Shown here: one piece after another, positions 18,697 through 21,813 of the stretch
Numbering within the stretch: the stretch's first letter is position 1
Layout of the letters: every line of letters starts with the position of its first letter
Assembly: GCA_017882465.1 (NCBI GenBank)
Contig: JADGPN010000017.1
Location: forward strand, 1-33,300
DNA: 33,300 nucleotides
Direction: 5' to 3'
Source of the DNA: Solirubrobacteraceae bacterium
Lineage (GTDB): Bacteria > Actinomycetota > Thermoleophilia > Solirubrobacterales > Solirubrobacteraceae
Translations under genes and position numbers: made by a program
Notes under the pieces: generated by a model
Databases searched by the model: none
Told to the model about the DNA's origin: nothing
Seen by the model: the letters and a program-made list of their open reading frames with translations, nothing else

Positions 18697-19071
18697 TCAG
18701 AACGCGTCCTCCACGTGCTCGAGGCGGACCAGGCGGCCGAGAGCGTCGACCGTGACCCCGATCGCGTCGAACCTGACCGAAACCGCGTACGGGCGCTCCC
18801 GGCGCTCGATCAGCCAGCTGCCGGCCATCTTGCGCACGCGCGAACGCTTGCCGGTGCCGACCGCGTCCAGCGGCCCGCTCCCGGTCGCGGTCAGGCGGCG
18901 CGTCTTGACCTCACAGAAGGTCAGGGTGAGCCCGTCGAAAGCGACGATGTCGAGCTCTCCCCAGCGGGTGCGGTAGTTGCGCTCCACGATCTCGAATCCG
19001 AGCCGGGCCAGATGGTCCGCAGCCAGGCGCTCGCCGAGTGCTCCGAGGCGGTGACGCAGGTCCGAGCTCAT
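18697..19071 (-). CDS. yraN: YraN/UPF0102 family endonuclease-like protein
   Basis: A 124-residue protein of the UPF0102 family, whose fold is that of a PD-(D/E)XK nuclease. I see LGALGERLAADHLARLGFEIVERNYR, then GELDIVAFDG and FCEVKTRR, which supply the family's Glu, Asp and Glu-x-Lys. Its cellular role is not firmly known; it clusters with comM and dprA in many genomes, suggesting DNA processing. The start is ATG 19069-19071, with TAGCGT ending 8 nt upstream on the minus strand. It is divergent from comM and its promoter mirrors the comM promoter. Confidence 0.92.
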   Translation of the reverse strand: MSSDLRHRLGALGERLAADHLARLGFEIVERNYRTRWGELDIVAFDGLTLTFCEVKTRRLTATGSGPLDAVGTGKRSRVRKMAGSWLIERRERPYAVSVRFDAIGVTVDALGRLVRLEHVEDAF

Positions 19072-19079
19072 CGTCTTCG

Positions 19080-19127
19080 ACGCTACGCCTGATCGCGTAA
19101 CGCGTGGGTGACACACAGCGACAATTC
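19080..19127 (-). promoter_or_regulatory. yraN promoter, mirrored copy of the comM promoter
   Basis: Read on the minus strand from 19127 to 19080, this 48-bp segment has GAATTG, then TCACCCACG, ACGCGATC and finally CGTAGCGT, whose TAGCGT is the -10 (19080-19085). The same blocks at the same spacing occur on the plus strand at 19157-19204. By my hand alignment 37 of 48 positions agree, and 28 of the 32 nearest the gene. Confidence 0.65.
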
Positions 19128-19156
19128 AGCGCAGGGGAGGCGCTCCGGACTGCGGA

Positions 19157-19204
19157 GAATTGGCACACACCGTCACCCACGTGTCACGCGATCGCGCGTA
19201 GCGT
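19157..19204 (+). promoter_or_regulatory. comM-dprA promoter, mirrored copy of the yraN promoter
   Basis: GAATTG (19157-19162), TCACCCACG (from 19173), ACGCGATC (19186-19193) and CGTAGCGT with -10 TAGCGT (19199-19204) match the yraN promoter block for block in the opposite direction. The centre between the two copies is 29 bp. TAGCGT ends 6 nt before ATG 19211, so transcription likely starts at or beside the start codon. Confidence 0.65.
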
Positions 19205-19210
19205 GGAGGC

Positions 19211-20728
19211 ATGCTCGCTCGAGTGGCCACCTTCACCATCGATGGCGTCGATCCGCGGCAGGTATGGGTGGAGGTCGACATCCGGCCGGGGCTGCCGGCG
19301 TTCACGATCGTCGGCCTCGGCGACGCGGCGGTGCGCGAATCGCGCGAGCGCATCCGCTCGGCGGTGCTGAACTCGGGGTTCGAGTTCCCCGCCCGGCGGA
19401 TCACGGCCAACCTGGCTCCGGCCTTCCTGCGCAAGGTGGGGCCTGGCTTCGACGCGGCGCTCGCGCTGGGCGTGCTGGCGGCCAGCGGCCAGGTGGCGCC
19501 GGAGTCGCTGGCCACCTTCGCGGTCTTCGGCGAGCTCTCGCTGGGAGGCGAGCTGCGGGACTCGCCCGGCGCCCTGGCCGTGGCCGAGGGCGCCCACCGG
19601 GCGGGGTTCGCCCACCTGATCGTCCCGCGCGAGAGGGCGCGCGAGGCAGCGCTCGTGGAGGGCATCGCCATCGCCGGCGCGTCGAGCCTGCGCGACGCGG
19701 CCGAGGTGCTGGCCGGCCGGACGCCGGCTGCGCCTCCGGCCGAGGCGCGCCGCGCGAGTGCACGCCAGGAGCCAGATCTCGCCGACGTCCGCGGCCATGC
19801 CGCTCCGCTGCTGGCGCTGCAGATCGCCGCGGCCGGGGGTCACAACCTGCTGCTCGAGGGCGCTCCGGGGACGGGCAAGACGATGCTGGCGCGGCGCCTG
19901 CCGTCGATCCTCCCGGCGCTCACCCGAGCCGAGGCGATCGAGGTCACGAGGATCCACAGCGTCGCCGGGATCCAATCCGACGGGCTCGTGCACGCGCGTC
20001 CCTTCCGCGCTCCGCACCACTCGATCTCGCCGGCCGGTCTGGTCGGCGGCGGAGCGCCGCCGCGGCCCGGGGAGGCTACCTTGGCCAACCATGGCGTGCT
20101 GTTCCTGGACGAGCTGTCCGAGTTCCAGCGCTCCAGCCTCGATGCCCTGCGCCAGCCGCTCGAGGACGGGTGCGTGACGATCGTGCGCGGCCAGCGGGCG
20201 CTGGTGTTCCCGACCCGGTTCATGCTCGTGGCCGCCACCAATCCGTGCCCGTGCGGCTATGCCGGGGTCGGAGACCGGTGCGGGTGCGGGGAGGCGGACC
20301 TGAGACGCCACCGGCGCCGCCTGAGCGGCCCGCTGCTCGACCGCATGGACCTGCTCGTCGACGTCGCGCGCCCGGCGGGGCGTGAGCTGCGCGCGGGACC
20401 GGCGGTCGACTCCGCTCGGGTGTGCGCACGGGTGGCCGTCGCCCGCGAGCGCCAGCAGGCGCGGCTCGCCGGCACGCAGGCGCGCTGCAACGGCGAGATG
20501 GACGGCAAGCTCGTCTCCCGCCACGTTCGCCTCGAAGCGGCGGCGGAGGCGGCGGTCGCGCGCGCCTACGACGCCGGCGCCCTGAGCGCGCGTGGGCGCC
20601 ATCGGGTGCTCCGGGTGGCCAGGACGATCGCCGATCTCGAGCAGTCCGATCGGGTCAGCGTCGACCACGTCCTCACCGCCCTCAGCCTGCGCCAGCGCGA
20701 CCAGGCCTCGGCGGCGCTGGCGGCATGA
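19211..20728 (+). CDS. comM: ComM/YifB family magnesium-chelatase-like AAA ATPase
   Basis: ComM is a DNA helicase that promotes branch migration during natural transformation. The 505-residue product has the N-terminal Lon-protease-like ChlI fold (opening VATFTIDGVDPRQVWVEVDI and GLGDAAVRESRERIRSA). The central AAA module has Walker A GAPGTGKT at about 217-224 and Walker B LFLDELSEF, then a cysteine-rich loop (PCPCGYAGVGDRCGCG) and a C-terminal Mg-chelatase-like helical domain. Length matches the family. It overlaps dprA by ATGA, the usual comM-dprA pair. GGAGG 19205-19209 immediately before the ATG is too close to act as a good Shine-Dalgarno. Confidence 0.95.
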   Translation: MLARVATFTIDGVDPRQVWVEVDIRPGLPAFTIVGLGDAAVRESRERIRSAVLNSGFEFPARRITANLAPAFLRKVGPGFDAALALGVLAASGQVAPESLATFAVFGELSLGGELRDSPGALAVAEGAHRAGFAHLIVPRERAREAALVEGIAIAGASSLRDAAEVLAGRTPAAPPAEARRASARQEPDLADVRGHAAPLLALQIAAAGGHNLLLEGAPGTGKTMLARRLPSILPALTRAEAIEVTRIHSVAGIQSDGLVHARPFRAPHHSISPAGLVGGGAPPRPGEATLANHGVLFLDELSEFQRSSLDALRQPLEDGCVTIVRGQRALVFPTRFMLVAATNPCPCGYAGVGDRCGCGEADLRRHRRRLSGPLLDRMDLLVDVARPAGRELRAGPAVDSARVCARVAVARERQQARLAGTQARCNGEMDGKLVSRHVRLEAAAEAAVARAYDAGALSARGRHRVLRVARTIADLEQSDRVSVDHVLTALSLRQRDQASAALAA

Positions 20729-21813
20729 TCGGCGATCGCGCCTGCGAGCGGTGCCTGGCCCGGCCGTGGCTCCTGGAGCGGCTGCGAGGGCATCTCGATC
20801 TCGAGCGCGGACGGCTGGGGGCGGCGCTCGAGCTGCCCGATCGGGAGCTGATCGCGGCCGTCGCGGGCGCCGAGCGCGGGAGCGTGAGCCGGGAGCTCGA
20901 CCGCTTCGACGCCGCCGGCGCCCGTGAGCGATGCGAGCGCGCGAAGGTGGAGCCGGTCTGCCGCTGCGATCCCGGGTACCCGGTGCGGCTGGCGGACCTG
21001 GCCGCCCCTCCGGCCGTGATCCACGTCGCCGGTGGCCTCGATCGCTTCCTGGATCTGGCCGCCGGGGACCCGGTGGCGATCGTCGGTGCGCGGCGCGCCA
21101 GCTCCTACGGGCTGGAGGTCGCCCGCTCGCTCGGCCGCGGTCTCGGGGCGGCGGGTGCGGTGGTGCTGAGCGGGATGGCGCTCGGCATCGACTCGGCCGC
21201 CCACGCCGGCGCGCTCGCCGCGCAGGCGCCGACGCTTGCGGTGCTGCCCGCCGGGGCCGACCACGCCTACCCGGCCAGCAGGCGCGCACTGCACGGCCGG
21301 ATCCAGGCCGCCGGGGCGGCGATCTCGGAGCTGCCTCCCGGCGCCGAGGTCCGGCGCTGGATGTTCCCGGCTCGCAACCGGGTGATCGCGGCGCTCGCGC
21401 TGATGACCGTGGTGGTGGAGGCGAGCGAGCGGTCCGGCGCATTGATCACAGCCGGGCTGGCGCAGGGCCTCGGGCGCGGTCTCGGCGCGGTGCCGGGGCG
21501 CGTGACCTCGCCGCTGGCCGCCGGGCCCAACTCGCTGCTGGCGGCGGGCGCGGCGCTCGTGCGCGGCGCCCAGGACGTCCTGGACCGTCTCTACGGCGTC
21601 GGCGTCCGCGACGGGAGCGCGGCTGAGCACCGCGCCGAGCTGTCCCCGGACCTGCGCCGGGTGCTCGATCAGATCGCCGGCGGCCGTGACACGGCGGCGG
21701 CGCTGGAGCGGGCGGGGCATCGGCCGGAGGAGATGCTGGCCGCGGTGGCGTCGCTGGAGCTCCACGGCTACATCAGGCGTGAGATCGGAGGTCGGTTCGT
21801 CCCGCTGCCGTAG
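20725..21813 (+). CDS. dprA: DNA-processing protein DprA
   Basis: Loads RecA onto incoming single-stranded DNA in transformation. The 362-residue product has an N-terminal helical region and the Rossmann-like core, with VAIVGARRASSYG, LSGMALGIDSAAHAGAL, FPARNRVIAALA and EASERSGALITA. It also has a C-terminal winged helix (about 300-362) ending KHGYIRR-like as LHGYIRREIGGRFVPLP. The start ATG 20725 overlaps the comM stop, so the two are co-translated. It sits under the mirrored promoter shared in design with yraN. Confidence 0.95.
   Translation: MIGDRACERCLARPWLLERLRGHLDLERGRLGAALELPDRELIAAVAGAERGSVSRELDRFDAAGARERCERAKVEPVCRCDPGYPVRLADLAAPPAVIHVAGGLDRFLDLAAGDPVAIVGARRASSYGLEVARSLGRGLGAAGAVVLSGMALGIDSAAHAGALAAQAPTLAVLPAGADHAYPASRRALHGRIQAAGAAISELPPGAEVRRWMFPARNRVIAALALMTVVVEASERSGALITAGLAQGLGRGLGAVPGRVTSPLAAGPNSLLAAGAALVRGAQDVLDRLYGVGVRDGSAAEHRAELSPDLRRVLDQIAGGRDTAAALERAGHRPEEMLAAVASLELHGYIRREIGGRFVPLP

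Follow-up and report, generated by a model that had tools for sequence, protein, structure and literature searches.

Divergent tandem-repeat promoters between yraN and comM as a predicted node of a competence regulon in Thermoleophilia

The window analysed here is a 33,300-nt stretch of contig JADGPN010000017.1 from a Solirubrobacteraceae bacterium, in which the genes yraN and comM-dprA are arranged divergently around a short intergenic gap. This gap is predicted to hold one type of activated promoter in two divergent copies and to be a node of a Thermoleophilia competence regulon, a reading to which a probability of about three in four is assigned from comparisons among related genomes. The wider proposal is also judged likely, namely that an undescribed, class-wide regulon of Thermoleophilia is controlled by one winged-helix activator through four tandem YGTCACA half-sites at leaderless promoters. 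This regulon would comprise comEA-comEC, comFC, prepilin peptidase, comM-dprA, yraN and recA, would have persisted in part in one genus after ComEC was lost there, and would bring in candidate competence genes, including a small membrane protein family and DUF2461 proteins. No paper on a competence regulon or its operator in Thermoleophilia was found in the open-access literature. Competence regulons are already known as a kind; the element, the lineage and the probable regulator class are new.

Results

Inverted blocks in the yraN-comM gap

A preliminary description of this DNA had reported two near-identical 48-bp blocks in inverted orientation between yraN and comM. Both were located as described (minus strand, 19127-19080; plus strand, 19157-19204), with identity at 37 of 48 positions and at 28 of the 32 positions nearest the genes, and the gap length of 139 nt was also confirmed. 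The same holds for TAGCGT as the -10 box of both arms, which lies 6 nt upstream of the ATG of comM and 8 nt upstream of that of yraN, the distance being about 5-6 nt in most of the comEA sites described below. In a repeat search the inverted pair could be extended to 58 nt with 76% complementarity. When the gap was shuffled 2000 times with dinucleotide composition preserved, the best inverted 48-mer reached 34 matches (mean 26.1), and none of the other 136-nt tiles across the window exceeded 34 inverted matches, compared with the 37 observed. The similarity of the blocks is real and above chance.

The similarity of the 48-bp blocks therefore stands, but a fixed block of that length was not the best unit; four tandem half-sites plus the -10 box, about 57 nt per arm, describe each arm better. 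The exact word TCACNCACG-N4-ACGCGATC, proposed earlier for a genome-wide search, was searched for in the window's own genome and gave two matches only, both at this locus, revealing no wider regulon. As its mismatch-free matches are just the two known sites, the word was unusable as a regulon motif. One copy with a single mismatch was observed elsewhere in the same genome (G000:C566:4277-4297).

Conservation and architecture of the element

By its ComM relatives, from Conexibacter and uncultured Solirubrobacteraceae, the window belongs to the Solirubrobacterales (class Thermoleophilia), and the head-to-head yraN-comM layout was kept in most of the family, often with a gap of 139-146 nt. At one locus (L016, genome G011) the gap has grown to 262 nt and contains several tandem copies of a unit of about 30 nt, GGGACTGCGCAGGATTCTCACACCG, which are a duplicated upstream part of the comM array.

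To compare the arms across the family, 64 comM arms and 47 yraN arms were aligned on the -10 box. The two profiles were nearly identical though derived independently, running in the order TGCGCAGA.TYGTCACA, a weaker CGKG..C, CGTCACACG, CSTAGCGTC and the start codon. The arm sequences have diverged between species, and both arms keep this same -10-anchored profile throughout the family, which supports the shared control of the two arms that had been suggested from the window.

A half-site matrix trained on positions -29 to -23 gave further peaks at -50, -61 and -40, indicating four head-to-tail half-sites in steps of 11, 10 and 11 bp. The half-site consensus is YGTCACA, with the variants GGCACA, GTTGCA and GTTACG, and the final half-site (-29) ends about 10 bp upstream of the TAGCGTC box. 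Because the start codon directly follows the -10 box, the transcripts would be leaderless or nearly so, and both arms are predicted to be divergent promoters of this type. Among the TASSGT boxes of a complete congeneric genome, distances to the start codon peaked at 6-7 nt, which agrees with leaderless promoters in this lineage.

Occurrence of the element before held-out genes

Upstream DNA was taken from 20 comEC loci, of which 18 were testable, and scored with a position weight matrix trained on the comM and yraN arms only. A predicted promoter was found directly before comEA in 14 of the 18 loci, in the correct orientation, at leaderless distance and with scores of 18-39; judging from shuffle rates, well under 1% of such loci would be expected to score this high.

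A sequence-only profile (R1; E-values rough) was then built from 55 comM/yraN arms. In 30 ComEC-bearing genomes of the family, 55 sites at E<=1e-4 were among the matches listed, 26 of them before yraN or comM and 29 elsewhere (10 comEA, 8 recA from 8 genomes, 1 prepilin peptidase and 10 other genes). Only the best-scoring candidates per genome were rescored, and one recA case (G062) was recognised via an out-of-frame reading. Lower-scoring R1 sites were observed before comFC, further prepilin peptidases and a secreted SNase, while those of radA and gyrB were without a -10 box. The prepilin peptidase gene carried the element in three genomes of one genus of the family and in another order.

Outside the family, the 13 R1 matches included comEA (2), comM (2), prepilin peptidase, a ComFC-like gene and a TadE-like pilin, the last assigned by eye only and having no Pfam match. 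As the element precedes comEA, comM, prepilin peptidase and a ComFC-like gene in other orders, the regulon is predicted to reach beyond the order. Genes for DNA uptake (comEA-comEC), DNA processing (dprA, recA, comM) and prepilin processing all share the element. The earlier suggestion of an undescribed competence regulon is thus supported by the held-out comEA-comEC, recA, prepilin peptidase and comFC genes within the family and by the members found in other orders.

Specificity within the window's genus

Across 28 congeneric genomes the full-architecture pattern gave 8 exact matches, all in the yraN-comM gap, and a control pattern gave none; with one mismatch allowed, the matches were still mostly in this gap. 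A matrix whose training set excluded one complete congeneric genome was run over 2 Mb (58%) of it; the two arms scored 29.6 and 26.6 and the next-best site 16.6, which is background. Because the two arms stand far above the next site, the element differs from the ordinary promoters of the lineage. In the window's own genome, R1 found the two arms and nothing else.

At the congener's recA, a tandem array without a TAGCGT box was observed some 230 nt ahead of the matched gene start, and it ranked among the best arrays after the yraN arm. Tandem GTCAC triplets without a -10 box gave about 12 scattered matches in the genus, only some of them at the yraN-comM locus. The 2 Mb scan gave the impression of a single-locus element, which is misleading because the window's genus is without ComEC; the regulon is visible only in ComEC-bearing relatives.

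Features of the locus

The coordinates of the genes and promoter parts are listed in Table 1. The dprA coding sequence probably begins near 20725, so that it overlaps the stop codon of comM.

Table 1. Genes and predicted promoter parts at the yraN-comM locus (window coordinates)
Feature	Position	Strand	Basis and remarks
yraN (UPF0102)	18697..19071	-	Pfam PF02021; driven by the minus-strand arm (predicted); divergent from comM throughout the family
yraN arm, -10 box TAGCGT	19080..19085	-	Sequence; TAGCGTC conserved in 47 yraN arms; 8 nt before ATG, near-leaderless
yraN arm, half-site 4 (-29), CGTTACG	19096..19102	-	Half-site matrix, sequence
yraN arm, half-site 3 (-40), TGTCACC	19107..19113	-	Half-site matrix, sequence
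yraN arm, half-site 2 (-50), TGTCGCT	19117..19123	-	Half-site matrix, sequence
yraN arm, half-site 1 (-61), degenerate CTGCGCT	19128..19134	-	Half-site matrix, weak peak
Entire yraN promoter element	19079..19135	-	Profile R1, E=1.1e-7, 35 bits
Entire comM-dprA promoter element	19150..19204	+	Profile R1, E=2.5e-10, 43 bits; top in genus
comM arm, half-site 1 (-61), degenerate CTGCGGA	19150..19156	+	Half-site matrix, weak peak
comM arm, half-site 2 (-50), TGGCACA	19161..19167	+	Half-site matrix, sequence
comM arm, half-site 3 (-40), CGTCACC	19171..19177	+	Half-site matrix, sequence
comM arm, half-site 4 (-29), TGTCACG	19182..19188	+	Half-site matrix, sequence
comM arm, -10 box TAGCGT	19199..19204	+	Sequence; 64 comM arms; 6 nt before ATG, leaderless
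comM (Mg-chelatase-type AAA+ helicase)	19211..20728	+	PF01078, PF13541, PF13335
Open frame containing dprA	20422..21813	+	PF02481 at residues 171-380

Further genes behind the element

In three genomes of genus g23 (L370, L423, L425; the assignment in L423 was made by eye) the promoter was carried by the gene for a small membrane protein (about 157 aa, no Pfam match), which is a candidate for a new competence gene. In genus g11, DUF2461 proteins (L364, L372) were preceded by a full-length competence-type promoter at leaderless distance, and related lipoprotein-like proteins in genus g20 (L365, L375; that of L375 without a Pfam match) also carried the promoter. Competence-type arrays were also found ahead of the genes for a nuclease-like protein of the AbiEi_4/MTES_1575 type (L412) and for an SNase-like secreted nuclease (L421). 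In genus g19, a conserved array without a -10 box was observed about 310 nt before murI (L414, L430), and the array of this genus (L414, L429, L430) adjoins a short uncharacterised frame.

Discussion

Predicted mechanism and comparison with known systems

Winged-helix activators use a geometry in which head-to-tail half-sites recur every 10-11 bp immediately upstream of a -10 box, as they do in these putative sites. The tandem 11-bp repeats, which resemble the operators of MtrA, PhoB and SARP proteins, suggest an OmpR-type winged-helix activator. With a spacing of 10-11 bp the half-sites share one face of the helix, where they would be bound by a dimeric activator with an OmpR/PhoB-type winged-helix domain, either a SARP (Streptomyces antibiotic regulatory protein) or a response regulator like MtrA or PhoB. 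Once bound, this activator would replace the -35 element, recruit the housekeeping polymerase and so co-activate the genes. In the window's genus, with ComEC lost, the switch would serve recombination genes only, that is yraN, comM-dprA and probably recA. MtrA itself was not established as the regulator; no ortholog over the NCBIfam cut-off of 300 bits was found in the window's own genome, where the best MtrA score was 244.7 bits. A CRP-like palindrome, TGTGA-N6-TCACA, was ruled out by the spacing.

Co-control of channel, receptor, prepilin peptidase, dprA and recA is known from the regulons of ComK in B. subtilis, ComX in streptococci and TfoX/Sxy in Vibrio and Haemophilus. The set of genes placed under one control here is comparable to these regulons, while the cis element is different. 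Micrococcus luteus, the actinobacterial competence model, has been reported to be without ComK and ComX (PMC12849477).

In half-site sequence and spacing the element agrees with MtrA operators, which in Streptomyces read GtnAcC-n5-GTnAcn (PMC13189361) and in mycobacteria consist of GTCACAgcg repeats (PMC4285127). Both share with the present element GTnAC/GTCACA direct repeats with an 11-bp period, and GTCACCCACGTGTCACG of the comM arm fits the Streptomyces pattern. However, the published MtrA targets concern replication, development, osmotic stress and antibiotics rather than competence (PMC13189361, PMC4285127), and in the present element four half-sites stand at set distances from a leaderless -10 box. 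PHO boxes, bound by PhoB/PhoP, are likewise 11-nt direct repeats (PMC4415409), and SARP proteins bind heptameric direct repeats that overlap the -35 region (PMC10972967). The head-to-tail 11-bp arrangement is common to these operators and to the element described here, whereas the half-site sequence and the gene set differ.

Alternative explanations

The main rival for the mechanism is PafBC, whose mycobacterial box is TTGTCRGTG with N8-TAnnnT and whose promoters, recA among them, rely on an element near -26 instead of being recognised at -35. Under this explanation the genes would form a DNA-damage regulon in which the housekeeping sigma factor is adapted by a PafBC-like WYL activator bound at -26, with the uptake genes as passengers. 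It would account for recA, comM, dprA and yraN acting on DNA, for recA being a frequent member, and for the -29/-23 half-site sitting where PafBC reads its -26 motif (PMC11804915). Nevertheless, the best members other than comM include comEA-comEC, comFC and prepilin peptidase, both in the family and in other orders. The element is also a multi-copy tandem array reaching to -61 instead of a lone -26 box, and the half-site is out of register with TTGTCRGTG, the family consensus being CGTCACACG-N8-TA within that longer array. Because uptake and pilin-processing genes are members, a damage regulon is considered unlikely, and of the competence or damage link suggested in the preliminary description the former is favoured.

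The very constant position of the half-site and its spacing to the -10 box, together with the limitation of the promoter to a small gene set, could instead reflect an alternative sigma factor reading GTCACA and TAGCGTC with no separate activator. This is rather improbable, as the array continues upstream of -35 with at least two more half-sites at 10-11 bp intervals, for which a sigma factor would have no use, and several recA, comFC and other sites retain the array without the TAGCGT box. An ordinary housekeeping promoter of the lineage, in line with the leaderless TAnnnT boxes found elsewhere in the congener, is hard to reconcile with a composite element nearly unique to the yraN-comM locus within the genus. 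Recent inverted copying of one arm from the other fares no better, since the arms diverge between species while the profile is kept, which fits selection on binding; either origin is very improbable.

The competence regulon is thus the preferred reading, and several observations weigh against it. The remaining 4 of the 18 testable comEA loci, all from one genus, scored below 8 and were without a clear site, and roughly one in three of the strong additional sites precedes a gene without a known competence role. The half-sites at -61 and -40 are weak. At least 15 OmpR-type response regulators are encoded in the window's own genome, none of them at the MtrA cut-off. ComEC (PF03772) was detected in 64 of 101 genomes of the family and, as judged by this single Pfam model with positive control genomes, in 0 of the 28 genomes of the window's genus (G000-G027). 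Finally, all of the support comes from sequence comparison.

In the window's genus the uptake channel ComEC has apparently been lost while the yraN and comM-dprA arms were kept. Because ComEC is not detectable there, the retained arms may be used for recombination rather than DNA uptake.

Implications

According to a 2026 study of M. luteus, it is poorly understood how Actinomycetota control competence, and the regulatory nodes have yet to be identified (PMC12849477). The defined 57-nt element would mark the predicted regulon by sequence alone, and it could be used for pulldown of the regulator, for listing new competence genes and for predicting which uncultivated Thermoleophilia are transformable. 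In the window's genus, where the control of yraN and comM-dprA appears to have been kept without ComEC, a natural test would be offered of the roles of recombination genes apart from DNA uptake.
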